Made by a program: the position numbers and the translations under genes | Shown: in pieces, positions 11,180-40,182 of the stretch | How positions within the stretch are numbered: the first letter of the stretch is position 1 | How the letters are laid out: every line of letters begins with the position of its first letter | Assembly: GCA_017541035.1 (NCBI GenBank) | Contig: JAFXZW010000073.1 | Span: 1-54,380 of the forward strand | Direction of reading: 5' to 3' | DNA from: Eubacterium sp. | Lineage (GTDB): Bacteria > Bacillota > Clostridia > Lachnospirales > Lachnospiraceae | Length of the DNA stretch: 54,380 bases | Notes under the pieces: generated by a model | The model's input: the letters and a program-made list of their open reading frames with translations, nothing else | What the model was told of the DNA's origin: nothing | Database searches by the model: none

Positions 11180-11208
11180 TTGCTTAACATTTTGTCGTTT
11201 TATATAAT
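11180..11208 (+). promoter_or_regulatory. Promoter of the peptide-export cluster
   Basis: TTGCTT (11180-11185) and TATAAT (11203-11208) are separated by 17 nt, close to the SigA consensus. It lies 78 nt upstream of the STAS gene. No other strong promoter is obvious in the next 13 kb, so it may drive the whole cluster. Confidence 0.75.
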
Positions 11209-11285
11209 GAAAATGGAGCGGATGATTATTCGACCGTTACAAAAGGATTTTACAAAAAGGAATGCATGTCAGACTGGAGGTTATT

Positions 11286-11582
11286 ATGAAGATCAATAAG
11301 AAAAAGAACGGAACAGAACTTGTTGTTGAGGTTATTGGGAGACTCGATTCTCTGACTTCTCCGGAACTGGAGGATGAACTGGAGAATTCCTGTGAAGGAA
11401 TTACGAAACTGATCCTTGACCTGGGACAACTTGAGTATATCTCCAGTGCGGGCCTCCGTGTACTGCTCGGAGCTGCTCAGACAATGGATGATCAGGGAGA
11501 GATGGTTGTTCGAAATCTGACCCAGCCGGTGAGGGATGTGATCGAACTTGTCGGTTTTGACAGCGCACTGAATATCGAATAG
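11286..11582 (+). CDS. STAS-domain anti-sigma-factor-antagonist-like protein
   Basis: This is a 98-residue single STAS domain. LILDLGQLEYISSAGLRVLL contains the conserved DLxxLxxISSAGL motif, with the Ser that is phosphorylated in SpoIIAA and RsbV. The start at 11286 is chosen because GGAGG lies 5 nt upstream. No cognate anti-sigma kinase or SpoIIE-type phosphatase is encoded nearby. It is the first gene of the export cluster, 14 bp before the HlyD-like gene, so it may be a regulator of this system by partner switching with a kinase encoded elsewhere. That link is inferred from position only. Confidence 0.9.
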   Translation: MKINKKKNGTELVVEVIGRLDSLTSPELEDELENSCEGITKLILDLGQLEYISSAGLRVLLGAAQTMDDQGEMVVRNLTQPVRDVIELVGFDSALNIE

Positions 11583-11596
11583 GGGAGAGATGATGA

Positions 11597-12016
11597 ATGG
11601 GTGAAGAGAAAAAACAGATTTTCAGACAACAAAGTCTTGATCGCATTGCCTCTCCGGAACAGCTGAACGATTATCTTCGAACGACGAAACCGGGGGCATG
11701 GATTTTACTTTCCGTGATCATTCTCGTGCTTGTTGCTTTTTTCTCATGGGCATCTATCGGGCGGCTGGAGACGACGGTTCCGGGTAAGGCTGCGGTTGAA
11801 GAAGGCAATGCCCGGATCATAATCCTCAGTGATATGGATGTGAGCGTGGGAATGACGGTTCGCGTAGGTGAGTCGGAGTTTACCATATCATCTGTGGACA
11901 GAGATGAGAATGGATATCCCATCGCAAATGCACCGGTTACGATTCCGGCCGGCAACTATGATGTGGAGATCGTAGTCGAAAGTATATCTCCGATCAGTTT
12001 TCTTTTTTCATTTTAA
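11597..12016 (+). CDS. Short NHLM/HlyD-like secretion protein
   Basis: The protein has 139 residues. Its N-terminus (FRQQSLDRIASPEQLNDYLR) matches the start of NHLM bacteriocin-system secretion proteins, followed by one membrane helix (about 36-57) and a short beta-rich domain. Family members are, from memory, usually about twice as long, with a coiled coil and a full barrel-sandwich domain. Here only about 80 residues follow the helix and the coiled coil is absent. AGGGGAGAG precedes the start and the exporter gene begins 34 bp downstream. It probably acts as a reduced membrane-fusion partner of the two ABC exporters. Confidence 0.78.
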   Translation: MGEEKKQIFRQQSLDRIASPEQLNDYLRTTKPGAWILLSVIILVLVAFFSWASIGRLETTVPGKAAVEEGNARIIILSDMDVSVGMTVRVGESEFTISSVDRDENGYPIANAPVTIPAGNYDVEIVVESISPISFLFSF

Positions 12017-12050
12017 GGTGAAATAACAGAGTGATTCTTTAGGAGAGAAT

Positions 12051-14234
12051 ATGGAAGGCAGCAGAAAAAAGATCAAGCCCACGATCACCAAGGGAGCAGC
12101 GAAGGTGCCGGTTGTGATGCAGCTGGAAGCGCTGGAATGCGGAGCTGCATCCCTTACGATGGTTATGGCCTATTATGATAAATGGATTCCCCTGGAACAG
12201 GTGCGTTCGGACTGCGGAGTTTCCCGTGATGGCTCGAATGCGAAAAATATCGCTCTTGCGGCAAGGAGATACGGATTTAAGGTGTCCGCGTTTAAGCGAA
12301 GTCCGAAAACGATCCGGGAGAAGGGGCAGTTTCCCTGCATTATTCATTGGAATTTTAATCATTTTGTCGTCCTTAACGGCTTCAAAGGAAAATACGCCTA
12401 TATCAATGATCCGGCAAGGGGATTTGTCAAGGTCCCCATGGAGGAGTTTGACAAGGCGTTTACCGGAGTTACGATCTATCTGGTACCGGGTGATGACTTT
12501 GAGCCTTCGGGAAAAAGAAAAAGCACTATCGTATTTGCCCGGAAGCGGTTGATCGGGGCGGGTGCGGCAGTGGCTTTTGTTATGGCAGCGAGTGTGGTCA
12601 GCTATTCCTTCGGTTTAGTCAATCCGGTCATGTCCCGGGTATTCATGGATCGTATCCTGACGGGAACGAACGCAGGATGGTTGAACGGATTTCTACTCAT
12701 TCTTGCCGGTTTTGCAGCAATCCAGATTCTGGCAGAGTGGGTGCGAACGATTTATTCGCTTAAGATCAACGGGAAGATGGCACTGGTCGGCACTTCGACC
12801 TATATGTGGAAGGTCCTCAGAATGCCCATGGAATTCTTCTCACAGCGAATGGCAGGCGACATCCAGCTCAGACAGCAGCAAAATGGTCTTCTTGCCGCGA
12901 CACTTATCGATACACTTGCACCGCTGGCCATGAACACAATCATGCTGATATTCTATCTCATCATCATGTTGAGGTACAACCTTCTTCTGACGTTAATCGG
13001 TGTAGTAACAGTGCTCTTGAATATCGTCCTGTCCCGGGTGATCTCTGAAAAAAGAACGAATCTTACAAGAATACAGATGCGTGATGCCGGTAAGCTTGCA
13101 GGTACTACAGTTGCAGGAATTGAGATGATCGAAACCATTAAGGCAAGCGGCGCGGAGAATGGGTTCTTCCGCAAATGGTCAGGATATCAGGCTTCAGTGA
13201 ATACGCAGGTCGTACGGTTCGCCCGGTTGCAGCAGATCCTCGGTGCGGTACCGCAGCTGCTGGCTACACTTTCTGGCTATGCGGTTCTGATCATCGGTGT
13301 ATGGCTCTGCATGGACGGGAAATTCTCCCTGGGTGCGGTTATGGCTTTTCAGGGCTTCATGACCTCCTTTATGGTACCTGCGATGACGCTGATCACCGCC
13401 GGACAGACCATCCAGGAGATGCGCACTCAGATGGAGCGGATCGATGACGTGATGGAGTACCCATCGGATGTAAATGTCGTGAATGAGTCAGAAACCGAAC
13501 AGCCTCTTAAAAAGCTCCGCGGAAATGTGGAACTGAAGAATATCACCTTTGGTTATTCAAAGCTGGCGCAGCCGCTCATTAAGGATTTCTCCATGACGCT
13601 GACTCCGGGAAGTCGCGTTGCCTTTGTGGGTACCTCAGGCTGCGGAAAATCCACAATCTCCAAGCTGATTTCCGGTTTATATAATCCATGGGAAGGGGAA
13701 ATCCTCTTCGACGGAAAGCATCGCAATGAGATACCGAGAAGTATCATGACCGGATCCGTAGCGGTGGTTGATCAGGATATCATCCTCTTTGAAGATACCA
13801 TCGCGAATAATATAAAAATGTGGGATGATTCCATCAAAGATTTTGAGATGATTCTTGCCGCCCGTGACGCACAGCTTCATGAAGACATCATGAGGCGCGA
13901 CGGCGGTTACGAGTATAAGCTTACCTCCGGTGGCTGCGATCTCTCCGGCGGACAGCGCCAGAGAATGGAGATTGCCCGGGTGCTTGCACAGGATCCGTCC
14001 ATCATCATTCTTGACGAAGCGACATCGGCGTTGGATGCCAAAACCGAATATGAGGTGGTGAAGGCCATTAAGGAGAGAGGGATCACATGTATCGTTATCG
14101 CACACAGACTGTCCACGATTCGTGACTGTGATGAGATCATCGTCCTGGAACGGGGACAGGTAGTTGAGCGCGGAACACATGATGAGCTTATGGCAAATGG
14201 CGGTATCTATACCGAGCTCGTGTCGAACGAATAA
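12051..14234 (+). CDS. NHLP-type ABC exporter with C39 leader peptidase
   Basis: The 727-residue protein has an N-terminal peptidase C39 domain with Gln24, Cys30 (LECGAAS), His104 and Asp120 (NDPARG) forming a complete active site. It expects substrates with a double-glycine-type leader. A six-helix exporter domain (about 165-440) and an ATPase domain follow; the latter has Walker A GTSGCGKST, signature LSGGQRQR and Walker B IIILDEATS. AGGAGAG lies just before the ATG. It sits 17 bp before a second exporter gene, which is the paired layout of NHLP bacteriocin export systems. It should cleave the leader while exporting a peptide. Confidence 0.95.
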   Translation: MEGSRKKIKPTITKGAAKVPVVMQLEALECGAASLTMVMAYYDKWIPLEQVRSDCGVSRDGSNAKNIALAARRYGFKVSAFKRSPKTIREKGQFPCIIHWNFNHFVVLNGFKGKYAYINDPARGFVKVPMEEFDKAFTGVTIYLVPGDDFEPSGKRKSTIVFARKRLIGAGAAVAFVMAASVVSYSFGLVNPVMSRVFMDRILTGTNAGWLNGFLLILAGFAAIQILAEWVRTIYSLKINGKMALVGTSTYMWKVLRMPMEFFSQRMAGDIQLRQQQNGLLAATLIDTLAPLAMNTIMLIFYLIIMLRYNLLLTLIGVVTVLLNIVLSRVISEKRTNLTRIQMRDAGKLAGTTVAGIEMIETIKASGAENGFFRKWSGYQASVNTQVVRFARLQQILGAVPQLLATLSGYAVLIIGVWLCMDGKFSLGAVMAFQGFMTSFMVPAMTLITAGQTIQEMRTQMERIDDVMEYPSDVNVVNESETEQPLKKLRGNVELKNITFGYSKLAQPLIKDFSMTLTPGSRVAFVGTSGCGKSTISKLISGLYNPWEGEILFDGKHRNEIPRSIMTGSVAVVDQDIILFEDTIANNIKMWDDSIKDFEMILAARDAQLHEDIMRRDGGYEYKLTSGGCDLSGGQRQRMEIARVLAQDPSIIILDEATSALDAKTEYEVVKAIKERGITCIVIAHRLSTIRDCDEIIVLERGQVVERGTHDELMANGGIYTELVSNE

Positions 14235-14251
14235 AGACGGAGGACTGATCA

Positions 14252-16444
14252 TTGGGTTGGTTTGAAAAACAGGTAAAACAGAGAGAAGAACTGGATCAGC
14301 AGCTTTTCGAGGATGCCTTCTTTCGTGCAGCTGAGGTCGTGCTGGGGAAAAAAATCGCTTCGGAAATGAGTGATGACCGGATCATCACGAAACAGGCCAT
14401 CGAGGATATTTTGAAGTACTATCATTACAAGCCGGTGGAGATACCAAAGGCGGTGAAGGAGCATGAGGAGCAGCTGGATTACAGCCTGCGTCCTCACGGG
14501 ATCATGCGCCGGAATATCGATCTTACCGAAGGCTGGTACAGGGATTCCTATGGTCCGGTCATGGCATATTTCAAGGAGGACGGTACTCCTGTTGCTCTGC
14601 TTCCAAGGAAAATGGGCGGGTATTATTATACAGACCGGGCTACGGGGAAAATGATCCGGATCAATGCCAAAACCATGGAGAAGATTCGTACCGAAGCATA
14701 CTGCTTCTATAAACCTCTCCCCCAAAAGCCGCTTGGAATCCCGGATCTGATCATGTTTATGAAACGCAGCATGTCAGCTTCTGACATAGTATTTGTCGTG
14801 CTTGCAACCCTTGCGGGAACCGGGGTCGGCATGCTGATTCCGAAGATCACGAGGGCCCTCACCGGTCCGGTGCTGCAAAGCGGGAAAATGTCGGTTCTCT
14901 GGGGTGCAGCCATCAGCATGATATGTATAGCCGTGATTTCAGGGCTTATTACCGCCATTAGCGGTCTGCTTGTTCAGAGGCTCAATACAAAAACCTCCGT
15001 GAGTGTAGAGGCCGCGATGATGATGCGTATTCTGACGCTTCCGGCTCCGTTCTTCCGGGAGTACAGCGCGGGAGAACTGACGCAGCGTGCCCAGTCTGTA
15101 AAGATGCTGTGTCAGGTAATCATGACTGTGATTTTTACCATGGGACTGTCATCCCTGTTCTCATTGCTTTACATTACACAGATATTCGGTTTTGCGCCTT
15201 CATTGGCAGTTCCTTCTATGCTGGCAATACTGGCCAGTATAGTATGCTCACTGGCAGCCACGCTTTTACAGGTCAGGGTGAGCCGGCAGCGGATGAAGTT
15301 GCAGGCAAAGCAATCCGGACTTACTTATTCGCTCATTACCGGTGTTCAGAAGATCAAGCTTGCCGGCGCAGAGAAAAGGGTATTCTCCAAATGGCTTCAG
15401 TTGTATGCCGACGAAGCGGAAATGACCTATAATCCGCCGATGTTCTTAAAAATCCATGTAGTGATCAATCTGGCGATAACACTTATTTCCACCATAGTCC
15501 TCTATGGTATAGCGTCGAAAAACGGTATTGATCCATCCACCTACATTGCCTTCAATACGGCTTACGGATGCATGATGGGGGCATTCTCCATGCTTTCGAC
15601 CATAGCAATTCAGGTGTCGGATGTAAAGCCCATGCTGGAGATGGCTGAGCCCTTTCTGAAGGCTGAGCCGGAGGCTGCGGACAATAAGGAAATGGTGACT
15701 GCCATCTCCGGAGCCATTGAACTGAACAACGTCTTTTTCCGGTATGCGGAGAATATGCCATATGTCGTAAATGATATGTCACTGAAGATCAAGGCCGGTG
15801 AATATATCGCCATCGTCGGAAAGACCGGCTGCGGAAAGTCGACGCTGATGCGTCTGCTGCTGGGCTTTGAGAAACCGGAACGCGGTGCAATCTACTATGA
15901 CAACAAGGATATGAACAGCCTTGATCTCTGCTCCCTGAGGCGGAAGATCGGAGCGGTAACACAGAACGGCGGACTCTTCCAGGGAGATCTTTTTTCCAAT
16001 ATCGTGATATCCGCACCGGAGCTTACACTGAAGGATGCCTGGGAAGCAGCGGAGACCGCAGGGATTGCAGATGATATCCGTGCCATGCCCATGGGCATGC
16101 AGACCATGGTTTCCGAAGGGCAGGGCGGTATCTCGGGGGGGCAGAAGCAGCGCCTTATGATCGCCAGAGCTATTGCTCCGAAGCCGAAGCTTCTCATGTT
16201 TGACGAGGCGACCTCCGCTTTGGATAACCGGACACAGAAACAGGTCTCCGAGGCCCTTGACCGAATGGGATGTACCAGGATCGTTATCGCACACAGACTT
16301 TCCACCATCAAAAATTGTGACCGTATCCTGGTCCTTGATCAGGGGAGGATCATTGAAGACGGAAATTATGAAGAACTGATCCAAAAGGGCGGATTCTTTG
16401 CGGAACTTGTGGAACGGCAGAGACTGGATACCGCTGTAAAATAA
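14252..16444 (+). CDS. NHLP-type ABC exporter permease/ATPase, second subunit
   Basis: The 730-residue protein starts with TTG, supported by GGAGG 8 nt upstream. The first 160 residues are a soluble domain typical of the second NHLP subunit and contain no C39 cysteine motif. Membrane helices occupy about 180-450. The ATPase has Walker A GKTGCGKST, signature ISGGQKQR and Walker B LLMFDEATSA. Together with the preceding protein it should form a heterodimeric exporter in which only the partner carries the peptidase. A 64-bp gap follows before the next gene. Confidence 0.93.
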   Translation: MGWFEKQVKQREELDQQLFEDAFFRAAEVVLGKKIASEMSDDRIITKQAIEDILKYYHYKPVEIPKAVKEHEEQLDYSLRPHGIMRRNIDLTEGWYRDSYGPVMAYFKEDGTPVALLPRKMGGYYYTDRATGKMIRINAKTMEKIRTEAYCFYKPLPQKPLGIPDLIMFMKRSMSASDIVFVVLATLAGTGVGMLIPKITRALTGPVLQSGKMSVLWGAAISMICIAVISGLITAISGLLVQRLNTKTSVSVEAAMMMRILTLPAPFFREYSAGELTQRAQSVKMLCQVIMTVIFTMGLSSLFSLLYITQIFGFAPSLAVPSMLAILASIVCSLAATLLQVRVSRQRMKLQAKQSGLTYSLITGVQKIKLAGAEKRVFSKWLQLYADEAEMTYNPPMFLKIHVVINLAITLISTIVLYGIASKNGIDPSTYIAFNTAYGCMMGAFSMLSTIAIQVSDVKPMLEMAEPFLKAEPEAADNKEMVTAISGAIELNNVFFRYAENMPYVVNDMSLKIKAGEYIAIVGKTGCGKSTLMRLLLGFEKPERGAIYYDNKDMNSLDLCSLRRKIGAVTQNGGLFQGDLFSNIVISAPELTLKDAWEAAETAGIADDIRAMPMGMQTMVSEGQGGISGGQKQRLMIARAIAPKPKLLMFDEATSALDNRTQKQVSEALDRMGCTRIVIAHRLSTIKNCDRILVLDQGRIIEDGNYEELIQKGGFFAELVERQRLDTAVK

Positions 16445-16508
16445 TCAGTCCTGGAAAAGGGTACCGGTGCAGTTTGGTACAGGACAAGTAAAGAAAGTGG
16501 GGGATGCA

Positions 16509-17372
16509 ATGACGGAGAAGCTGTTATCTGATGAATATCACCTGAATGATGAAGAGAGGTCTGTCTTTCAGGAATACTCGAAGAATCTTTTTGCGGATGC
16601 GAAAGAGATAGAAAATCCGGACCTGCATTTCCTTGATTTTTGGGAAAGAATCCTGCTCTATTCGAATATGGTTGGCGTAGACAAAGCAATCAATGAGAGG
16701 GTTTGTGCAAAACGGCCGGTGGACTTTCGGTCGCCTGAGACGTTGAAGTTGGAGATCTATGATTCTCTGGCAGGAAAAATCCCCATCATCTATGTACGTG
16801 ACACAGAGGATTTCGAACAGCTGGTGACAAATCTCCTTCATCAGGGAATCCGGCCGAAGAACATTTCCACCACAGGAGCATCCTTTGTCTCCTCGAAGAG
16901 CACCCGGTTTATCATCCTTTCTGCGAAGCCCTACAGCAATGTTCCTGCCGTGGAACTGGGACTTCCGGATGAGACGGAGTGGGAAGAAAAGTCACTGATC
17001 CTGCGACGTGGGCATGAGTGCACCCATTATTATACGAAGCAGACCTACGGGATCACAAATAATAACCTGCATGATGAGATCATGGCGGATTTCATTGGAA
17101 TGTATGAGGCATTTGGGTTTTATAAGGCAGATTGGTTTCTCAGGTTTATGGGGATTATAAAAGGCAGCGGAGATCGGCTTCAATACTACACCGGAGCTCT
17201 TTCGGTGAATGTGCGAAATGCCGTATCGAAGCTGGCGGAGCTATGTGCTTATAAACTGGAAAAATGGTCGCTAACCGACAGTTTTCAGAACATGACCGTT
17301 GGTGGTAGGATCAAATATATGTGCAAAGCCGGATTTGACGGCCTTCTGCAGGAAACCTGGGATATTACATGA
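16509..17372 (+). CDS. Putative HExxH metallopeptidase of the export cluster
   Basis: The 287-residue protein has no signal peptide or membrane helix. Residues 169-173 read HECTH, a zinc-binding HExxH motif, and Glu190 within HDEIMAD lies 17 residues after the second His, as expected for a gluzincin-type third ligand. The rest of the protein is unassigned. The ATG at 16509 follows GTGGGGG and is preferred over GTG at 16467. The location directly behind the exporter pair suggests it processes the exported peptide or its leader. It could also be a catalytically inactive structural protein, but the motif is complete. Confidence 0.78.
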   Translation: MTEKLLSDEYHLNDEERSVFQEYSKNLFADAKEIENPDLHFLDFWERILLYSNMVGVDKAINERVCAKRPVDFRSPETLKLEIYDSLAGKIPIIYVRDTEDFEQLVTNLLHQGIRPKNISTTGASFVSSKSTRFIILSAKPYSNVPAVELGLPDETEWEEKSLILRRGHECTHYYTKQTYGITNNNLHDEIMADFIGMYEAFGFYKADWFLRFMGIIKGSGDRLQYYTGALSVNVRNAVSKLAELCAYKLEKWSLTDSFQNMTVGGRIKYMCKAGFDGLLQETWDIT

Positions 17373-17512
17373 TCCGTATGTCAGTATCCGGTCTTGCATC
17401 AGGATGTCGATCAATCGTTGGAATGAAGAAAAGTTGTCCGGAAAAAAATGGTTTGATGAAGAGGCAGATGAGTAGTCCCGGATTACGAAAAATTTTTTAG
17501 GAGGGCGAGGAA

Positions 17513-18787
17513 ATGTTTAGAAACCCCGATACTTATCTGCTTTACGAGTATATGGAGAAACTGTCATTTACAGCAAGGATAAAGGTCTGTCTCGATGATA
17601 CGGTTGACAGGAAGCTGTTGAAGGATGCGGCACAGGAAGCCATCAGCAGATTCCCGTATTTCAGTGTGAAGATCGGTCTGGATGAAGGACAGAACTACAT
17701 ACTGGAGCATAATGATAACCCGATCGCAGTAATCCCTGAAAAGGATATGAGGCTGACTTTGGGCAGTGATGACGTAAATGGACATCTTTTTGCAATTACC
17801 TACAGAGATAACTGCATCTGGTTTAATTTTTCTCATGCACCCTGCGGGGGTACGGGAGCCCTTTTCTGGGTTAAAACCACTCTTTATCAGTATATGGTTA
17901 AAAAGTACGGAAGCATTGAACCGCCAAAGGATATTAAGCTTCCGGGTACTCCTGTGACGGAAGGGGAGATGTATTACCCGGATGCAGATAAACTGCCGGA
18001 TGATGAGCCGATCTCGCGATATACGGGAGGCGACACCAATCTGCATCTCGGCAGGACGCTAAAGTATCTGCTGAATCCTTTTGTCAAGGATAATTACTAC
18101 TATCAGATTGAGATTCCGGCAAAGGATTTTATGGATTACGCGAAGAAGATTGACGGAAGCCCGAATACCATTCTGACGGCATTTATGTTTAAGGTGTCTT
18201 CCCGACTGTTTAAGGAGAAGAAGGATACATTTCTTTCGGGCAGGATTGCCGCCGATTACCGGAATGAGATCGGCGCGGATCTTTCCTACCGGGATTTCGT
18301 TCGTTTCATTCATGTAAAGTACGAATGGAGTATGAAGGATGAATCGATTCAGAAACTCAATATGCGTGCAAGAGGTCCGGCTATTGCACAGAACCTGCCG
18401 GAGCTTGGCGTGGAGAGATTTAAGAAGCTCGAGAAGGTGCATAGAGAGATTGATGAACAACCGAATCTGAAGGCAAAGAAGAAGTATGCTTCCCAAAACA
18501 GTACATTTCGAAGTGACCCCCGGGACACATATACCATCAGTTATGTAGGGCAGGTCGACTGGGGCGGAATGGATGCGCATATCAAAGGCGTTTATTCCAT
18601 CACGGACGGAGATCTTATGCTGGAGGTGAATGTCATTAGGGATGCCTTCTGTATATCTTATCAATTGATCAATAAAGATCCGAAGCCGCTGGAACTTTTC
18701 TGTGAGGAACTGAAGAAGGAAGGCGTTCCGTATAGTGTGTCAGAAAGGTTTGCACGGTATTTGCCGAAGATCAAGTTCCCGTCATGA
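17513..18787 (+). CDS. Acyltransferase-fold protein (CAT/condensation-like)
   Basis: The 424-residue protein resembles CoA-dependent acyltransferases of the chloramphenicol acetyltransferase and condensation-domain fold. The N-terminal strand-helix pattern and the phrase FNFSHAPCGGTGALFW occupy the place of the HxxxDG active site. The His (108) is kept but the usual Asp is Gly (112), so activity is uncertain. A late SYVGQVDWGG fits the DFGWG-like structural motif. AGGAGGGCGAGG precedes the ATG. It may acylate a peptide or lipid product of the cluster, or be a non-catalytic binding protein. Confidence 0.72.
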   Translation: MFRNPDTYLLYEYMEKLSFTARIKVCLDDTVDRKLLKDAAQEAISRFPYFSVKIGLDEGQNYILEHNDNPIAVIPEKDMRLTLGSDDVNGHLFAITYRDNCIWFNFSHAPCGGTGALFWVKTTLYQYMVKKYGSIEPPKDIKLPGTPVTEGEMYYPDADKLPDDEPISRYTGGDTNLHLGRTLKYLLNPFVKDNYYYQIEIPAKDFMDYAKKIDGSPNTILTAFMFKVSSRLFKEKKDTFLSGRIAADYRNEIGADLSYRDFVRFIHVKYEWSMKDESIQKLNMRARGPAIAQNLPELGVERFKKLEKVHREIDEQPNLKAKKKYASQNSTFRSDPRDTYTISYVGQVDWGGMDAHIKGVYSITDGDLMLEVNVIRDAFCISYQLINKDPKPLELFCEELKKEGVPYSVSERFARYLPKIKFPS

Positions 18788-18867
18788 GGAAATCGACGAA
18801 AGGATGTGGGATTATTCCGATCATGCGGAAGCGTCCCTCTTCGTAGAAGCACATTGAAAGGAAACCT

Positions 18868-20742
18868 ATGATTAAGGTTCTAAGGAGTAAAGGTTGGACG
18901 TTGGCTGCGATCGGGGTTACGCTGGTCATGTTGATCAGCGGAATCCTGATCGCTCTCAGGTTTTACGTCAAGACGGATCTGTATGATACCCCGGTATCCC
19001 TGCTGGAAGGTAAGTACTCCGTTGATGGCGGAGAGTGGAAGGAACTTAAGGCTGATCAGACCATCACGGATCATTTCCATAAGATTGAAATCCGGGGGAA
19101 GCTGACGAAGAATGTGCTTAAACTCTATGATGAGATCAATCTTATCACAAAGGACGTCTGGTTTGAACTGAGCACGGCCGGCGGGGAGACGCTGTCAGCT
19201 TATACCTTTGAATCCATGAAGACGGGATATGAACATCTGGTTGTCGGCCGCCCTTATGCGCTGGAGCTTCCGGACACCCCGGGTTACAGGATCTCGACGA
19301 TCAGGTCACTACAGCTTGTCAATCTATATGGGATCGATCCGGATACCGAACTGGTGCTTACCGTGGAGTATCCGTACAGCTCAAGTTGGAAGAGCTTCAA
19401 TTACTGCTTTCAGGTGACCTACAATTATACTGACGGTCTGTACATGCGTTTCTATTATGAAGCACTGCCTGTTGTTCTCCTTTTTGTCCTGGTATGCTTC
19501 TTTGGGCTTTTCTTCTTCCCCATAGCCGGACGGATCCTGGGAAAGATGGATTACCGGTATCTGACCTTCGGCGCCGTATGCTTCTTCTGGGGCACCTACA
19601 TGATCGTGCAGAGCCTGTCCGGTTATCTTAACATATGGATCATGGATCCTACGCTTTGCATGATGCTGGATCATCTGACGGAATTCGGATTCATCTCTTC
19701 CCTGTTGTTTTATTTTAAGACCAATATGCGGCGAAGCATTTCCCGTTGTATTGCAAACCTTACAGGTACCGTATATCTGGGAGTGGCTATCACCCTTCTT
19801 ATCCTGCAATTGACCGCGACGGCGGATCTTACGGCAACAAGCGGTCTGATGAATATCATTACCACGGCATTCATTCTTCTGATGATCGTTCTTCTTGTTA
19901 CAGAGGTGAAGGGAAATCGTGACACACTGTATTTCCTGCTGTCCTGTGTTCCGCTGATCCTTACCCTGGGCATAGACTTCCTGGACCGGTTTATCTCCAT
20001 CCCGGGAGCACATTTCTTCCGGTATGGCATGGCGATCACCATGCTGGTTCAGATCATAGCGCTCTGCTACGATCTCAGGCAGCAGTATCTGGAGCGGCTG
20101 CGTTACGAGAAGATGCAGAAGGAACTCTATGAGGCAAATGTGGCAGTGATGGTGAGTCAGATCCAGCCGCATTTTATGTACAATGCACTGACCTCCATAG
20201 CTATGATGTGCAAGCTTGATCCGGATAAGGCGCAGGAAGCCACGGTTACCTTCGCCAAGTATCTTCGCGGAAATATGGACTCCCTCAAACAGAAGGAACC
20301 CGTTCCCTTCGAGCAGGAACTGGAACATTTAAAGAAATACCTTTATATTGAGCAGCTCCGGTTTGGTAAAAAGCTGAACGTGGAGTATGATATCCGGGTG
20401 ACGGATTTCCGTCTTCCGCAGCTTTCCGTACAACCGCTGGTAGAAAATGCTGTAAAACACGGTGTGGGAATGAAAAAGAAGGGTGGTACGGTGACCATCG
20501 CCACACGGGAAACGGATGAGGCCTACGAGGTGGTTATTACAGATGACGGTGTGGGATTTGATGTAGAGGCTACGCGTGGGAATCAGGAGACGGACGGACG
20601 TTCCCACGTGGGAATGGATAATACGAAACGGCGGATCAAGGAAATGTGCGGCGGTGAGGTTGTGATCGAGAGTACGATCGATGTAGGGACAACCGCCCGG
20701 CTGATCCTTCCGAAGGATAACCAGCCGTCATTGTCATCCTGA
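18868..20742 (+). CDS. 7TMR-type sensor histidine kinase (LytS/YesM class)
   Basis: The 624-residue protein has an N-terminal helix (about 13-32), an external beta-rich domain (about 40-190), about seven membrane helices (about 195-400) and a kinase core. The H-box is SQIQPHFMYNAL, the N-box PLVENAVKHG and the G-box DDGVGF, all intact. The layout matches 7TMR-DISM sensors. It should sense an external ligand and phosphorylate the response regulator encoded 41 bp downstream. AAAGGA precedes the ATG. Its stop codon lies inside a dispersed repeat. Confidence 0.92.
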   Translation: MIKVLRSKGWTLAAIGVTLVMLISGILIALRFYVKTDLYDTPVSLLEGKYSVDGGEWKELKADQTITDHFHKIEIRGKLTKNVLKLYDEINLITKDVWFELSTAGGETLSAYTFESMKTGYEHLVVGRPYALELPDTPGYRISTIRSLQLVNLYGIDPDTELVLTVEYPYSSSWKSFNYCFQVTYNYTDGLYMRFYYEALPVVLLFVLVCFFGLFFFPIAGRILGKMDYRYLTFGAVCFFWGTYMIVQSLSGYLNIWIMDPTLCMMLDHLTEFGFISSLLFYFKTNMRRSISRCIANLTGTVYLGVAITLLILQLTATADLTATSGLMNIITTAFILLMIVLLVTEVKGNRDTLYFLLSCVPLILTLGIDFLDRFISIPGAHFFRYGMAITMLVQIIALCYDLRQQYLERLRYEKMQKELYEANVAVMVSQIQPHFMYNALTSIAMMCKLDPDKAQEATVTFAKYLRGNMDSLKQKEPVPFEQELEHLKKYLYIEQLRFGKKLNVEYDIRVTDFRLPQLSVQPLVENAVKHGVGMKKKGGTVTIATRETDEAYEVVITDDGVGFDVEATRGNQETDGRSHVGMDNTKRRIKEMCGGEVVIESTIDVGTTARLILPKDNQPSLSS

Positions 20743-20758
20743 GCGAAGCGAAGGATCT
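20732..20758. repeat. Dispersed GAGCGAAGCGAAGGATC-type repeat
   Basis: This 27-nt element overlaps the stop codon of the kinase gene. It belongs, from memory, to a widely scattered bacterial repeat with the core CCTGAGCGAAGCGAAGGA. Short complementary ends (TCCT / AGGA) allow a small hairpin. Only one copy is present in the window. Confidence 0.65.
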
Positions 20759-20783
20759 AATAAAACAGAGGAGAGAGTGTCAT

Positions 20784-21566
20784 ATGCGTATACTATGTCT
20801 CGATGATGAAGAACTGGCCCTCCGGATGCTGGAAATCTGTGTACGGGAGGTTAAGCCGGATGCGGAAGTGGAAGGCTTCGACGATCAGGATGAGCTGCTG
20901 GAGTCGGCAGAAAAAAACGGCTGCGATGTAGCATTTCTGGATATCCATATGCGCGGAATGACCGGTGTGGAGGTGGCAAAACGCCTTAAGGAGATCAATC
21001 CGAAGATGAATATCATCTTCGTCACCGGGTTCTCCGAGTATAAGGGAGATGCCATGGATCTGAAGGCCTCCGGATATATCATGAAACCGGTAACAAAGGA
21101 AGAGGTTGCCGAGGAACTGGATAATCTCCGCTTCCCCATCGTTCCGAAGAAGAATGTAAAGCTGCGTGTCCAGTGCTTTGGTAATTTTGATGTTTTCCTG
21201 CCAAATGGAGAGCATGTCCGTTTTGAACGGTCCAAGGCAAAGGAGGTTTTTGCTTATCTGGTGCATCGCCACGGAAGCTCCTGTACACTGCGGGAGATTT
21301 TCGCCGTGATCTTTGAGGACGAACCATATGAAAAGAAACTTCAGAATCTGCTGCAGACCTATATTTACGCGATGATCAAGAGCCTGAAGGAGATCGGCGC
21401 TGAGGATGTGATTGTCAGAAGCTACAACGCCCTTGCGGTGAATACAGACCTTCTCGATTGCGATTATTACCGTTTTAAGGAACTGGATCCGGGCGCAGTC
21501 AACGCCTATGAATCCGAGTACATGAATCAATATGAATGGGCAGATTTTCTTTTTAACGACTATTAG
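20784..21566 (+). CDS. Response regulator with winged-helix output
   Basis: The 260-residue protein has a receiver domain (1-120) with the acidic pair in LCLDDEE, the phosphoacceptor Asp in VAFLDIHM, Thr in FVTGFSEY and Lys in MKPV, all intact. The C-terminal half (about 128-245) looks like an OmpR/SARP-type winged helix (VKLRVQCFGNFDVFL, RSKAKEVFAYLV). That differs from the LytTR output usual for partners of LytS kinases. GAGGAG precedes the start. It probably controls the cluster or its exported proteins. Confidence 0.9.
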   Translation: MRILCLDDEELALRMLEICVREVKPDAEVEGFDDQDELLESAEKNGCDVAFLDIHMRGMTGVEVAKRLKEINPKMNIIFVTGFSEYKGDAMDLKASGYIMKPVTKEEVAEELDNLRFPIVPKKNVKLRVQCFGNFDVFLPNGEHVRFERSKAKEVFAYLVHRHGSSCTLREIFAVIFEDEPYEKKLQNLLQTYIYAMIKSLKEIGAEDVIVRSYNALAVNTDLLDCDYYRFKELDPGAVNAYESEYMNQYEWADFLFNDY

Positions 21567-21604
21567 AATCCATAAGATGGGGTAAGAGCGGAGAGGGGGA
21601 TTCG

Positions 21605-22615
21605 ATGAAGAAAAAAATCAAAATGGGAGTTCTGATCCTCGCCATGATGGTTTTATTCTCTGCATGCGGAGCAAAAGAGGAACCAAAAAGCAACGGGGAA
21701 AGCACACAGATCAGCAACTCCGATACTTCCGGAACGGAACCCGACAGTATATCGGGAAGCAGTACTGCGGATGATACGGATACGACCGCCCATGACAGGC
21801 TGATGTCAAAATGCAGGACATATCTTGAACGGGCGAACGACCTGGATGATGTGGGAAATGTTCTTACTGCCGAATATCTGCGTGGCTATGTACAGGCAGA
21901 TATATCGTCACTCCGGATGTGCATTGATACCATTCTGTGGCTGATGGGCGAAGGAGAATCCCTTTCCGATGTGATCGGAGCAGCACCCTATCCTTCGTGG
22001 GAAAAAATCATCGGAGCTGGTTTGAGTAATGATGCGCCGTTCTACTTCCAGGGCCTTCTCTATGAAATACAGGGAAAGAAAGAAGAGGCGGAGGAAAGTT
22101 ATCAGAAGGCAGCCATGAATCCCGGACATGAGGAGAGAGATTTTTATTACCTTCGACACATGTCGGTAGAGGAATTGCATCAGCTCAGAGAAAAGGTTCT
22201 GGAGATGGAGTATGACATTGCGGAGCAGTACACGCCGAGAACGGCCCTCCTGAAAGAACAGACCGGAGCGGAGTTTGCGCCGGCATTTCATCTGGCAATG
22301 ATGAAGGAGTATGAGGAGAGTCCGACGGATATGTATCAGTGTGCGGTGAACGCCCTGCTCACAAATCCTACGGATCCATCCCTGTACACGATTGCGGCGA
22401 CGGCTGCAATCAACGCCAATAAACCGGAGATGGCCTGCGAACTGATCAATGACGGACTTTTTCTCTTCCCTGATGACGCGGAGCTGAATTATTATGCAGC
22501 GCTGCTTTCGGTATCGGACGATGAGACAAAGGCGTTTCTGGAAAAGGCAAAGGAAAAGGCAGATGAGGAATTGAAGACGAAGATACAGGCTCTTTCAGAG
22601 CAGATCGGAGAATAG
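21605..22615 (+). CDS. Lipoprotein with TPR-like helices
   Basis: The 336-residue protein has a lipoprotein signal (LFSAC, Cys21), then a Ser/Thr/Asp-rich linker (about 25-65). A helical domain follows, with TPR-like pairs such as FYFQGLLYEIQGKKEEAEESYQ broken into short segments, and a second set near the C-terminus. It should be anchored outside the membrane and bind protein partners. GAGGGGG precedes the ATG. One base separates it from the next gene. The partner and exact role are unknown. Confidence 0.85.
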   Translation: MKKKIKMGVLILAMMVLFSACGAKEEPKSNGESTQISNSDTSGTEPDSISGSSTADDTDTTAHDRLMSKCRTYLERANDLDDVGNVLTAEYLRGYVQADISSLRMCIDTILWLMGEGESLSDVIGAAPYPSWEKIIGAGLSNDAPFYFQGLLYEIQGKKEEAEESYQKAAMNPGHEERDFYYLRHMSVEELHQLREKVLEMEYDIAEQYTPRTALLKEQTGAEFAPAFHLAMMKEYEESPTDMYQCAVNALLTNPTDPSLYTIAATAAINANKPEMACELINDGLFLFPDDAELNYYAALLSVSDDETKAFLEKAKEKADEELKTKIQALSEQIGE

Positions 22616-22616
22616 G

Positions 22617-23966
22617 ATGAAGAGATTACGTAAAACCATACTTCTTGCCGTTCTTACTCTTGTCTTGTGTTTTGGGGCGGGAAGTCCCGTCCATGCGGAA
22701 ACAATACGGATCGACGGGTATCTGCTCCCGGAGATTCCAAAGCCCCGCGGAAGTGCCACATATGATGCCGAGCTTCAGGTTGAAACACAAAACGGCAAAA
22801 TTGCTCTGAAAGGAACCTGCAGCTCGGAAGGTGAGCTTACGGATCAGGAGCGTGCCCAGGCAGTGTGGGATGCTCTGTACGCCGTTCCGGAATATGATAA
22901 AGTATCCGATGCCGCAGAGGAACAGAAATATGTTTCAGACCTTACGAAAAAATTAAAAACGGATCTTGAGGACCCTGGCCGCATTCTGAACAATTTCTTT
23001 AAATGTGCCGGAATCGACAAGGTTACAGATCTTTTGCAGGGGAAGATTCCGCAGTATTCCTGGGATGATATTGTCAAAATGTTTATCGCTGCCGCGCAGG
23101 ATAAGACTGCTGTGGAAGTATTCAGTCCTGTTCCTCTCGGCGTAGGTGATGCGGTGAGCGGCGCGATCATCGGGACGGCAAAAGTCTCCTGGGCAGAGTA
23201 CAAAAATGATCAAAAGAGATGGAAGAATATAGTGGATCTGGCGAATGCAAAAGCAAGACTCAGGGAGTATGACATGGCCGTAAAGGTTAATCTTTTGAAG
23301 CTTGCAGAAAAAAAGATGGAGTGGACGATCCGGATTCAGGATGAGTATTCTCAGGAGATCCTTTATGATCAGATGCTTAATGTAGAGGCTCCCATGATCC
23401 ACTCTGCAGATATTCTTCTGAAAAAGTCTGGGGATATGTCAACTCCGTACGGAACCTATACCGGGACGATCAGGTATAAAGGGGAAATGGATCTGAAGAG
23501 ATATGACAACAGACTCCCTTACTATTATTCCGTATTTTGGGACGGTTTTTCCGGCGACATTTCATATCTGGGTCATTATACCGGAACAGGAGTGAAGATC
23601 AACCGGCCTTCTGAAAATGTTCTCATTCTGGAACGGACGAATTTCAAGTACAGCATGATGGAGGGAGATAGTTTCGGCGGGATATTTGAAAATCCGATAG
23701 ATACCTCGAAAATGGAAGTAAAGGATTTCCATGTGCTTCATGATTATGTTGTTACCCTGCAAAGAAAGGAACCATCCGCCACCAGAACGGTTACGTATAC
23801 GAATATCCTGGATTCGAAAGCCGCAAAGGATCATAAGTCCTGGCTGGTCCACTATGTTACAAATTCGGGTGAAACCTATGATACGAAAGATCAGGCCAAT
23901 AATGACTATCCGGAGACGGATCCTCGTAAGTATCTGAAGCTGACGCTGATCATCAGAAAATTTTAA
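22617..23966 (+). CDS. Secreted protein of unknown function
   Basis: The 449-residue protein has a Sec signal peptide ending near PVHAE (about residue 28) and no membrane anchor. The first 200 residues are mixed helical; the C-terminal 200 look beta-rich with many Tyr and Thr. I recognise no domain. It lies between two lipoproteins in a tight gene string (1 and 13 bp gaps), which suggests that the three form an external complex. It is probably exported by Sec rather than by the ABC exporters, as it lacks a double-glycine leader. Confidence 0.82.
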   Translation: MKRLRKTILLAVLTLVLCFGAGSPVHAETIRIDGYLLPEIPKPRGSATYDAELQVETQNGKIALKGTCSSEGELTDQERAQAVWDALYAVPEYDKVSDAAEEQKYVSDLTKKLKTDLEDPGRILNNFFKCAGIDKVTDLLQGKIPQYSWDDIVKMFIAAAQDKTAVEVFSPVPLGVGDAVSGAIIGTAKVSWAEYKNDQKRWKNIVDLANAKARLREYDMAVKVNLLKLAEKKMEWTIRIQDEYSQEILYDQMLNVEAPMIHSADILLKKSGDMSTPYGTYTGTIRYKGEMDLKRYDNRLPYYYSVFWDGFSGDISYLGHYTGTGVKINRPSENVLILERTNFKYSMMEGDSFGGIFENPIDTSKMEVKDFHVLHDYVVTLQRKEPSATRTVTYTNILDSKAAKDHKSWLVHYVTNSGETYDTKDQANNDYPETDPRKYLKLTLIIRKF

Positions 23967-23979
23967 CGGAGGAAGGGAA

Positions 23980-24750
23980 ATGAAAAAGAGATACTATGCA
24001 TCGGCGTTGGTCGTTCTGGCACTTACGATGTCTGCATGTGGGAGCAGCTCCGGAAGCACCTCAGGGGCAGGAGTCGGGAGCGAAGCGTCAACGGTTTCCG
24101 CATCCGAAAAGGATGAACCGTTAACAAGGAAAGATACTTCAGAAGGGAAAAATGATACGCCCCTTACCCGGGAAGATGCTACGGAGAAAAAGACGGAAGC
24201 GGCTTCCGAACCGGACGAGGCTGCAAGGGGCATCAGTATTGAAGAGGCGTTATCCAGTAATACAATCTGGGCCAATCAGGATGAGGAGATAAAACAGGAA
24301 CTGATGGCGGAGGCAAAAAAACAGGGTGGAGAGATTTCCTTCGGTTCAGACGGAACGACGAAAATAGTAGATAAGGACGGAACAGTCTCCATTCAAAATG
24401 CCGATGGGTCATGGAACTTCCGGAATCAGGACGGATCCGCATCGCAATTTGGCGGAGACTGGCCGGAAAATGATTTTACAAAGCTTGTGCCCAAACCGTC
24501 ATTCCGGTTGATGGCTTCGGATACATCGGATACCGAATTCAATGTGCTGTTCTCCGATGCAGATATCGGTGCCATCCGGGAATACGCATTGAAGGTAAAG
24601 GACAGCGGCTTTGATAAGAACGAAACGGTGACTGATCAGGATCTGCAGGGAACTGCATTTTACTCGTATGAAGCTTCGAATGGAAAAGGCTACCGGATCA
24701 ATGTGTTCAGCTCTGCGAATGCGAGCGGAATGACGATCTCGAAAGAGTAG
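23980..24750 (+). CDS. Small lipoprotein of unknown function
   Basis: The 256-residue protein has a lipoprotein signal (TMSAC, Cys20). A low-complexity linker (about 22-80) follows, with a near-repeat PLTRKDTSEGK / PLTREDATEKK. Then comes a globular part with short repeated turns (DGTTKIVDKDGTVSIQNADG) that suggests a small beta-sheet. GGAGG precedes the ATG. It is the last gene of the export cluster. The last codons and stop lie in the first of three tandem DNA repeats, so the C-terminus has been copied into the downstream spacer. Confidence 0.83.
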   Translation: MKKRYYASALVVLALTMSACGSSSGSTSGAGVGSEASTVSASEKDEPLTRKDTSEGKNDTPLTREDATEKKTEAASEPDEAARGISIEEALSSNTIWANQDEEIKQELMAEAKKQGGEISFGSDGTTKIVDKDGTVSIQNADGSWNFRNQDGSASQFGGDWPENDFTKLVPKPSFRLMASDTSDTEFNVLFSDADIGAIREYALKVKDSGFDKNETVTDQDLQGTAFYSYEASNGKGYRINVFSSANASGMTISKE

Positions 24751-24828
24751 GGTCTCATGCGAGCGGAATGACGATCTCGAAAGAGCAGGGTCATGCAAGC
24801 GGTATGACGATCTCGAAAGAGCAGGGTT
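24719..24828. repeat. Three tandem 36-38-bp repeats at a convergent gene junction
   Basis: Copies lie at 24719-24756, 24757-24792 and 24793-24828, sharing the core ATGACGATCTCGAAAGAG. Copy 1 is coding and contains the TAG stop of the lipoprotein gene; copies 2 and 3 have CAG there. Copy 3 reaches the stop codon of the convergent GGDEF gene. The array looks like recent duplication of the gene's 3' end. Confidence 0.85.
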
Positions 24829-39244: not shown

Positions 39245-40165
39245 ATGGAACCGGATTTAGTGAAGAAGAAAAAAATAAAGGTGTTGATCATACTTGGGGC
39301 AGCTCTGGCGATTATCATTTTAACAGGGCTGCTCATACTTTTTTTCCGCCAGAAGGATAAGACCTATCGTCTGCTTAAGGTTTATGAAATGGCGGGAGAT
39401 GGGGAAGTGGAGAGAGAAGGAATCGGAAAGTTAGATCCTTACACGAATATGAATCTGGAATCCGGTGACCGGATCAAGCTGGATGAGGGCGTATTCAATA
39501 TCAAAGCGGACGATGATAAATACATTTTCCTGAATGAAAAAACAGAGCTGGTACTGGAAGCAACGGGAGATGAGAAGAACAGCAAGATTCGGATCAATCT
39601 GCTGTCCGGAGGTATTACGAACGATATCCGAAACAAGCTGACGGGAGATTCCTCTTACGAAGTCAATACTCCGAACTCCACCATGTCCGTTGTCGGAACG
39701 ATCTTCTTTGTATGCAACTATCAGGAGAACGGAATCGAGTATACCAAGGTAAGCGTTTTTGACGGAACGGTTTCGACAAAACTGAAATATCAGGATGGAA
39801 CCCTGTCCACTGAGGAAGTAAAGGTATCCAGCGGTAAGGAAGTGCTGATCTATCAGGACGAAAATACGACGGATTATATCATGAGAGATGTGGCTTATGA
39901 TGAACTTCCTGAAAATGTTCTCCGGATCCTGGGCAGACTTGCGGATGAGGACAGACCTCTGTCCATTACCAAGGAGGAGATTGTAAAGCTCCTGGAAGGT
40001 CCCTTCACGGTTATCTTTACCTATGAGGGAAGGGAATTCGGAAGACAGACAGTAAAGAAGGGCGAGTACGTAGCAAAGCCGACTCTTGCACCGGCATCCG
40101 GCGGGGAGTGGGATTATGATTTTACAAAACCGGTTGACCGGGATCTTATCATTGAGTGGAAATAA
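39245..40165 (+). CDS. FecR-domain membrane protein
   Basis: The 306-residue protein has one membrane helix (about 12-34) and an external FecR domain (about 60-215), recognisable by SGDRIKLDEG, NTPNSTMSVVGTIFFV and VFDGTVSTKL. The C-terminal 50 residues form a small beta domain. AAGGAG lies about 12 nt before the ATG. Eighteen bases separate it from the giant repeat gene, and a CHASE2 cyclase follows, so the three probably work together. FecR domains outside TonB systems are often paired with CHASE2 proteins. It should sense or scaffold at the cell surface. Confidence 0.86.
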   Translation: MEPDLVKKKKIKVLIILGAALAIIILTGLLILFFRQKDKTYRLLKVYEMAGDGEVEREGIGKLDPYTNMNLESGDRIKLDEGVFNIKADDDKYIFLNEKTELVLEATGDEKNSKIRINLLSGGITNDIRNKLTGDSSYEVNTPNSTMSVVGTIFFVCNYQENGIEYTKVSVFDGTVSTKLKYQDGTLSTEEVKVSSGKEVLIYQDENTTDYIMRDVAYDELPENVLRILGRLADEDRPLSITKEEIVKLLEGPFTVIFTYEGREFGRQTVKKGEYVAKPTLAPASGGEWDYDFTKPVDRDLIIEWK

Positions 40166-40182
40166 GCCTGGAGGTTTACGGT

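Follow-up and report, generated by a model that had tools for sequence, protein, structure and literature searches.

The window, a 54,380-nucleotide stretch of DNA from Eubacterium sp. (Lachnospiraceae; contig JAFXZW010000073.1 of assembly GCA_017541035.1), contains a row of eleven genes on the forward strand; the genes, proposed in an earlier sequence-only reading, are real and lie where that reading placed them. The first five form a compact unit that is kept in a close relative and parts of which turn up again across several bacterial phyla: a STAS protein (98 residues; 11286..11582; PF01740, 60 bits; start with a GGAGG site in a frame open from 11262), a short HlyD-like adaptor with a membrane helix and a small C-terminal domain (11597..12016), an ABC protein with C39 peptidase, permease, and ATPase parts (ABC1; 12051..14234), its partner permease/ATPase (ABC2; 14252..16444), and an HExxH protein of the DUF7005 family (16467..17372; PF22541, 168.8 bits; homologues begin at ~16509). 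These are followed by a CAT/condensation-like protein (17513..18787), a 7TM LytS-like histidine kinase (HK; 18868..20742; PF06580 and PF07695, 7TMR-DISM), a response regulator (RR; 20784..21566; PF00072), and three exported proteins, that is, a TPR-like lipoprotein (21605..22615; TPR matches below cut-off), a rare protein of unknown family (22617..23966), and a lipoprotein with a weak DUF6591 match (23980..24750; 23.8 bits, cut-off 27.1). Matches above the Pfam cut-offs bear out that reading's STAS, C39 (PF03412), response regulator, and histidine kinase (with 7TMR-DISM) and place its HExxH protein in DUF7005; two of the exported proteins have lipoprotein-like signals and the third a signal-like segment, judged by eye. 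Rfam gave no match inside the window at gathering scores.

The row had also been given a single promoter. A promoter-like site upstream of the STAS gene (TTGCTT, 17 nt, TATAAT; 11180..11208, forward strand), found by reading, does contain a perfect TATAAT (11203-11208); however, its −35 hexamer is poor (3/6 matching), the promoter scan did not list it, and the CAT-like gene is set off from its neighbours by 140 and 80 bases. The single promoter is not confirmed. Across the region the scan found 23 promoter-like sites with 19.0 expected (sd 3.9), that is, no clear excess.

By its sequence, the exporter is of the NHLP/LahT type (PCAT): ABC1 scores 918.3 bits with NCBIfam TIGR03796 (cut-off 853.3) and ABC2 scores 722.2 bits with TIGR03797 (cut-off 709.4). 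The sequence-only reading was right that this is a peptide exporter whose C39 domain looks intact, but the exporter is of a known kind and not of a 'new type'. Of the 421 positions of TIGR03794, the 139-residue adaptor matches only 1-84, and its 30.6 bits fall far short of the cut-off (156.2). Residues 4-150 of ABC1 are identical to the LahT domain (PDB 6mpz) at 98/147 positions (67%); according to the excerpted text of PMC6363468, LahT150 cuts Nif11-type and nitrile-hydratase-type GG leaders, and its cleavage is impaired by Lys or Asp at −7, by most changes at −12, and by Asp, but not Lys or Thr, at −4.

The sequence-only reading held that a leader peptide must exist and that no gene for one is recognisable. 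A leader peptide should indeed exist; the second statement is true for the cluster and false for the genome. Two filters of the cluster's small frames, which looked for ribosome sites and GG motifs, yielded no convincing precursor, and two coding-like gap stretches (17359-17472 and 18780-18854) were rejected as precursors because they had no convincing relative among the fetched loci. Elsewhere in the genome, contigs C8, C18, and C109 together carry at least four precursors of the Nif11 type with LahT-like leaders. A TIGR03798 search exceeds the cut-off on C109 and C8 and falls below it on C18 and C10; the leader profile A3, which includes the genome's own four precursors among its sequences, matches C8, C18, and C109 at E 1.4e-30 to 2.6e-36. 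All four of these A3-type precursors have V-4, L-7, and L-12 as well as GG and, on sequence, would suit LahT-type cleavage. A genome-wide NHLP leader match on C113 (E 2e-5) was set aside, with no RiPP-like neighbour recognised.

Candidate maturation enzymes are also located outside the window cluster. Contig C59 encodes a LanM (PF13575 above cut-off) that is 96% identical over 910 residues to the LanM (PF13575 and PF05147) on contig C51 of genome G011, where the gene stands 1.2 kb ahead of an A3-type precursor and the 14 kb read contain no exporter; the G011 contig that carries the same precursor as the window's genome is 20 kb long. C109 encodes a radical-SAM/SPASM enzyme whose closest counterpart in the compared set is that of locus L087 (59%). 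The location of C8, C18, C59, and C109 in trans is read from draft contigs, the window's genome (G000) being in 139 of them.

Two loci join exporter genes, DUF7005, and precursors. The order in L090 is HlyD-ABC1-ABC2-sigma-DUF7005-precursors, with the leader type of the window's genome; the order in L087 is ABC2 end-sigma-DUF7005-six such precursors-LanM part-radical SAM-STAS-PP2C-RsbW, and its contig begins at the ABC2 end, which is 88% identical to the window's over 185 residues. G027 carries two Nif11-like precursors after STAS-HlyD-ABC1-ABC2. The ABC1 tree places the window together with L090 in a clade of nine rows (six distinct sequences; support 100/99). We infer the exporter-precursor pairing from these loci; it is not one-to-one across genomes. 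A3-type precursors occur without a DUF7005 match in G016 and G029, and G347 likewise has the A3-type leader with nothing matching DUF7005 at E 1e-12. Conversely, a close DUF7005 is present in G002 and G019, which have neither an A3-type precursor nor a LanM match. In G051, a draft that is 88% complete, the exporter is close (84%), but searches for DUF7005 and for an A3-type leader found nothing. Among 98 genomes without the window's own, co-occurrence is not significant (p 0.09; p 0.007 with it). In 397 genomes of the family searched at E 1e-12, the A3-type leader occurs in 2, DUF7005 in 9, and both only in the window's own; this search does not strengthen the pairing.

The exporter's own substrate might instead be a short diverged precursor, with the C18, C109, and C8 peptides leaving by another route. 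The window's genome has four exporter pairs in total, and the pair on C136 also has no precursor beside it, making it a competing candidate for precursor export; furthermore, G029 has its A3-type precursor and LanM adjoining a different exporter (48% identical), and in G019 the exporter and DUF7005 are present but A3-type leaders are not. However, L090 and L087 join the A3 leader type to close relatives of the window's exporter, the exporter on C10 has its own precursor with a different leader subtype, and the other three exporters of the genome, including those on C136 and C10 (long branches of uncertain placement), fall outside the window's ABC1 clade. We judge this reading, with export through C136 or C10, rather unlikely; the peptides exported by the window's exporter are probably encoded elsewhere in the same genome.

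Because the precursors, LanM, and radical-SAM enzyme are encoded elsewhere and the corresponding parts occur in one row in L087, we consider it likely that the RiPP system is split and that the first five genes serve its export and processing. In such a system, the LanM and/or the radical-SAM enzyme would modify the core peptides; ABC1 would bind the leader and cut after GG; and ABC1, with ABC2 and the short adaptor, would export the core. Genome mining that considers one cluster at a time would list this exporter as substrate-less and the C18, C109, and C8 precursors as exporter-less; linking the two is a simple, testable rule.

DUF7005 is the new element beside a known kind of exporter; no mention of it was found in the literature searched. 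Its HExxH-x16-E-x3-D motif is invariant in 52/52 aligned sequences (the window and 51 of 80 loci), and we take the HExxH with its downstream Glu to resemble the motif of thermolysin. The structure model is confident (pLDDT 94.4) and has 0 PDB matches at E 0.001; the second-ranked match is a putative zinc peptidase (E 0.25, TM 0.18). PADLOC gave a weak match (E 0.004), which we discarded. We propose that DUF7005 is a putative cytosolic peptidase acting on precursors; it would be a gluzincin-like zinc enzyme whose target may be the precursor, leader, or core.

From 107 confirmed DUF7005 loci we took the best 80 (neighbours by tblastn at E ≤ 1e-6) and counted an exporter when ABC1 scored ≥350 bits, ABC2 scored ≥300 bits, or a C39 stretch had ≥35% identity. 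Exporter genes occur in 40/80 of these loci, many of which are cut by contig ends, and in 30/48 of those that are ≥15 kb; STAS occurs in 20/80. The precursor pattern flagged 27/80; three (L112, L137, L145) are not precursors by eye, leaving credible GG precursors in 24/80 within the available stretch, with short leaders undercounted (e.g., L100, L103). The 80 are not independent: L080, L081, and L089 are G011, G002, and G019 again, and L083/L084/L085, L103/L104, L121/L128, and L151/L154 are near copies. DUF7005 is linked to precursors with differing maturation enzymes or none seen, including radical-SAM clusters (a set that includes some fragments), and is a useful marker gene for loci with an exporter and GG precursors. 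This link, whatever the maturation enzyme, is expected of a general accessory, including an immunity protein that breaks down mature or misdirected peptide within the cell. A peptidase acting on leaders would give the same pattern, and we regard an immunity function as unlikely.

The STAS protein, which we liken to the partner-switch proteins SpoIIAA/RsbV, has an 89% identical counterpart in the same place in G011. In relatives, STAS lies beside an RsbW-like kinase and a SpoIIE phosphatase; small sigma-70-type genes adjoin the exporter in L083, L087, and L090. The window's STAS differs from SpoIIAA/RsbV in being tied to a peptide exporter with no sigma gene adjoining. It may be an anti-anti-sigma-type switch with the RsbW and SpoIIE encoded on C42 of the same genome as kinase and phosphatase partners, and it may act on a small sigma factor like those that adjoin the exporter in relatives. 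Our literature search found no paper linking a STAS domain with NHLP or bacteriocin export.

The genes that follow DUF7005 had been taken together with the exporter as one set; the full set of eleven does not co-occur in relatives. Exporter, STAS, and DUF7005 recur, and HK-RR is displaced downstream in two relatives, whereas in the DUF7005 loci the CAT-like gene is rare and the three exported proteins are absent. The 'CAT-fold' was read by eye from a motif-like SHxxxGG stretch; the protein has no Pfam match up to E 0.1, and a three-sequence profile has no PDB match below E 0.3. Among the best 80 of 107 DUF7005 loci, the CAT-like gene occurs in 1/80, HK in 6/80, RR in 10/80, and the three exported proteins in 0/80; the exported protein at 22617..23966 is found in 3/99 genomes, one being the window's own. 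The eleven genes could nevertheless be one self-regulated operon, in which an exported signal is read by HK-RR, which in turn drives the operon and the exported proteins: all are on one strand with mostly short gaps; in G011 (85/94%; ~10.5 kb) and G002 (65/88%; ~5.4 kb), HK-RR orthologs follow DUF7005 at a distance and share its strand, suggesting a possible sensing-export link; relatives of RR (30-34%) lie just upstream of the exporter in five Synergistaceae/Synergistales loci (L122, L123, L138, L153, L156); and the C10 exporter has HK-RR relatives in its vicinity. The G019 contig is too short to show a downstream HK-RR, and the best RR of that genome (69%) is on another contig. Against an operon, in addition to the 0/80 and 1/80 counts, the interval from DUF7005 to HK in G011 is taken up by unrelated genes, several of them in the opposite orientation; G002 has HK-RR near DUF7005 and no exporter in 29 kb read, and G002 (AC2029) also has a CAT-like gene (62%) next to HK-RR, with no exporter in the 16 kb read; and four further RR copies in the window's genome (68-73%) have no exporter on the stretches read, some of 4-10 kb. 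We therefore judge such an operon quite improbable; at most a regulatory link would tie the CAT-like gene, HK-RR, and the three exported proteins to the recurring unit, outside which they lie.

Many DUF7005 homologues come from rumen or other gut samples, by their record titles, and the gut bacteria that carry them are strict anaerobes, so an oxygen-dependent step is unlikely. That DUF7005 is an α-ketoglutarate-dependent HExxH oxygenase (as in IPR026337) modifying the peptide, not a peptidase, is very improbable: such HExxH enzymes do occur in RiPP pathways (excerpted text of PMC12636437), but DUF7005 has no NCBIfam match up to E 0.1. As a broader and tentative proposal, DUF7005 might found a new family of intracellular metallopeptidases for GG-leader RiPPs that acts alongside the C39 exporter irrespective of how the peptide is matured; with the STAS/RsbW/PP2C switch and a sigma factor, it might mark a regulated export platform that gut Bacillota, Spirochaetota, and Synergistota have in common and that lets one exporter serve precursors scattered through the genome.

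Besides the partner-switch proteins likened to STAS above, three known systems are closest to the split RiPP system that we favor. The lah cluster of Lachnospiraceae bacterium C6A11 (LahT, an AMS/PCAT transporter), as described in the excerpted text of PMC6363468, shares Nif11-type GG precursors, which LahT150 was shown to cut, and a C39 domain 67% identical to the window's; it holds its own nine lahA precursors, whereas the window's are on other contigs, and that text yielded no mention of DUF7005 or STAS. Export of NHLP/Nif11 bacteriocins (TIGR03796, TIGR03797, TIGR03794, TIGR03798) is alike in both ABC subunits and in the Nif11-type leaders of the genome; the window differs in its 139-residue adaptor, which corresponds to the first fifth of TIGR03794, and in the addition of STAS and DUF7005. 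Finally, Myxococcus fulvus combines a PCAT with the M61 peptidase MfuP for a class II lanthipeptide (PMC10885120), that is, a C39 exporter with a zinc peptidase, as is putative for DUF7005. MfuP cuts the core and not the leader; DUF7005 belongs to a different family (PF22541) and is linked also to radical-SAM clusters, and the window's LanM is encoded in trans.

The cluster comprises eleven genes on one strand (window 11286-24750). ABC1 and ABC2 exceed the NCBIfam cut-offs for an NHLP exporter pair, and the STAS, C39, DUF7005 (the HExxH protein), histidine kinase (HK) and response regulator (RR) matches pass those of Pfam; the HlyD-like adaptor (139 aa) matches only the first fifth of its NCBIfam model. 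The CAT-fold label of the sequence-only reading finds no support in Pfam or in PDB sequences. As to the promoter proposed ahead of the cluster, a TATAAT is present upstream, but its paired -35 is weak and promoter-like sites are in no clear excess in the region. Three copies of a 36-bp repeat (24719-24828) lie where the last lipoprotein gene ends; copy 1 carries the TAG stop codon of that gene, and the other copies have CAG at that place. Further along, at 40156-47478 and 47497-49281, are the genes of a 2440-aa MBG-domain protein and, immediately after it, a CHASE2-adenylate cyclase; a FecR-domain gene immediately precedes the former.

All eleven genes had been taken as one set; gene order in relatives upholds this for the first part only. 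STAS-HlyD-ABC1-ABC2-DUF7005 is conserved in G011 (80-90% identity), as is ABC1-ABC2-DUF7005 in G019, on a short contig starting within ABC1; in both genomes similarity to the window is lost immediately past DUF7005. Draft genome G051 has an 84% identical exporter on a 5.9-kb contig, and DUF7005 was not found there. A search for DUF7005 across 84,980 species, each represented by one genome, confirmed 107 places, of which the best 80 were used; these belong to Lachnospiraceae, Ruminococcaceae/Oscillospiraceae, other Clostridia, Treponema, Synergistaceae and a few further groups, and record titles trace many of them to the rumen or other gut sources. An exporter is present at 40 of these best 80 of 107 loci (30 of 48 among loci of at least 15 kb), HlyD at 32, radical SAM at 26, STAS at 20, RsbW at 11, PP2C and RR at 10 each, HK at 6, CAT-like at 1 and each of the three exported proteins at none. 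In 30 of the 40 loci DUF7005 and exporter share a strand, and in 21 they are within 2 kb of each other; from the four exporter pairs in the window's 2.98-Mb genome, we estimate that such closeness would arise by chance in ~3%. These counts and this closeness place the recurring unit, as judged from gene order, among the first five genes.

We read these five genes as the export part of a split RiPP system with its precursors on other contigs. The missing precursor of the sequence-only reading has candidates, albeit outside the cluster: a TIGR03798 search finds Nif11-type precursors above cut-off on contigs C8 (one) and C109 (one, adjoining a radical-SAM/SPASM gene), and below cut-off on C18 (two in tandem, close to the contig end) and C10 (one, with its own exporter). 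A link is provided by L087, a locus of a Clostridia draft genome that carries in a row an ABC2 end (88% identical over 185 aa, where the contig begins), a sigma-70 region 4 frame, DUF7005, six precursors of leader type A3, part of a LanM, a radical SAM gene, STAS, PP2C and RsbW; its radical-SAM enzyme is, among those compared, the closest to that of C109 (59%). L090 has HlyD-ABC1-ABC2-sigma-DUF7005-two precursors, and in the ABC1 tree it shares with the window a nine-row clade (six distinct sequences; support 100/99), outside which fall the exporters of C136, C10 and C62 of the same genome (C136 and C10 are long branches of unsure placement). In G027, of the same genus, two Nif11-like precursors come after STAS-HlyD-ABC1-ABC2, with no DUF7005 match. 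The window's C39 domain is identical to that of the PCAT exporter LahT at 98 of 147 positions. The LahT peptidase domain, LahT150, is reported (PMC6363468) to cleave Nif11- and nitrile-hydratase-type leaders, with cleavage impaired by Lys or Asp at -7, by most changes at -12 and, at -4, by Asp and not by Lys or Thr; all four C8, C18 and C109 leaders have L-12, L-7, V-4 and GG.

The A3 profile combines these four leaders with six of L087/L090; among 99 genomes it has hits at E <1e-12 in four (that of the window, G011, G016 and G029) and weaker ones in G006 and G050. In G011 the precursor begins 1.2 kb past a LanM sharing 96% identity with one on C59 of the window's genome; C59 stops ~1.2 kb past LanM and C18 stops 280 bases past its precursors, and we infer that these unjoined contigs would form one LanM-precursor locus. 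Across genomes, exporter/DUF7005 and precursor do not pair one to one: the leader type occurs without DUF7005 (G016, G029, G347), DUF7005 without leader type or LanM (G002, G019), and the exporter without either DUF7005 or leader type (G051); in G029, an A3-type leader and LanM are joined to a distant exporter. The co-occurrence p is 0.007 including the window's genome and 0.09 excluding it.

In DUF7005, the H, E and H of HExxH-x16-E-x3-D and the downstream E and D are invariant in 52 aligned sequences (the window and 51 of the 80 loci; 3 of 54 tried were left out for stops). The AlphaFold2 model (mean pLDDT 94.4, pTM 0.91) has a few strands, then a long helix with HExxH, and the second Glu in the following helix, the same layout as in gluzincin peptidases. 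Among solved structures there is no match by sequence up to E 5 or by fold at E 0.001; the poor fold matches are led by a Tam41 structure (E 0.04, TM 0.20) and a putative zinc peptidase (E 0.25, TM 0.18). Inspection by eye shows no secretion signal in the protein. G050 has two DUF7005 copies, each immediately upstream of GG precursors (locus L049, on its contig C8), with no exporter found within the 20 kb read. Among the best 80 of 107 loci, 27 were flagged for precursor-like genes, and at 16 of these 27 such genes lie no more than 2 kb from DUF7005; three flags were judged false by eye, all at loci other than those 16. Loci L143, L146, L149, L151 and L154 each have four to ten GG precursors, differing in their cores, in an array that is a few hundred bases away from DUF7005. 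A role as an HExxH oxygenase of the kind described in PMC12636437 is unlikely in anaerobes; we take DUF7005 to be a putative cytosolic peptidase acting on precursors or leaders.

STAS adjoins RsbW-like and SpoIIE genes in some relatives, and C42 of the window's genome (L188) has a 69% identical RsbW-like kinase gene amid three SpoIIE-type phosphatase genes, a possible partner-switch hub. Small sigma-70-type genes adjoin the exporter or DUF7005 at L083 (16968-17459), L087 (899-1126) and L090 (9585-10007), with region 4 in all three and region 2 in two; these may be the target of a STAS/RsbW switch. A partner switch may act on the exporter system.

HK, RR and CAT-like genes occur together in G002 (AC2029; 69% over part of the length, 72% and 62% identity, respectively), with no exporter within the 16 kb read, and RR has four further copies in the window's genome (68-73%); the best RR match of G019 (69%) is on a different contig. 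HK-RR may have a regulatory tie to the exporter unit, since the nearest orthologs lie on the same strand downstream of DUF7005, by ~10.5 kb in G011 and 5.4 kb in G002. Between DUF7005 and HK-RR in G011, a TIR-domain protein with beta-propeller-like and weak ThsB-like (Thoeris) matches is encoded on the opposite strand (L047 10534-13683, on its contig C13). Counting that of the window, three of 99 genomes encode the exported protein at 22617. HK-RR or RR paralogs (~70% identity) at L191-L195, several near genes for signal-bearing proteins by eye, perhaps reflect a sensor-secreted protein theme in the genus.

Our literature search found no paper on DUF7005 or on STAS with NHLP or bacteriocin export, so as far as that literature goes the associations of both are new; a term search of the abstract and main text of the Hungate1000 bacteriocin survey (PMC13289728) met neither Nif11 nor NHLP. 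PCAT export of GG-leader RiPPs is already known, as is, for some RiPP systems, a distal location of the precursor genes (PMC4603692). PCAT with a metallopeptidase has one precedent, MfuP, which cleaves the core (PMC10885120).
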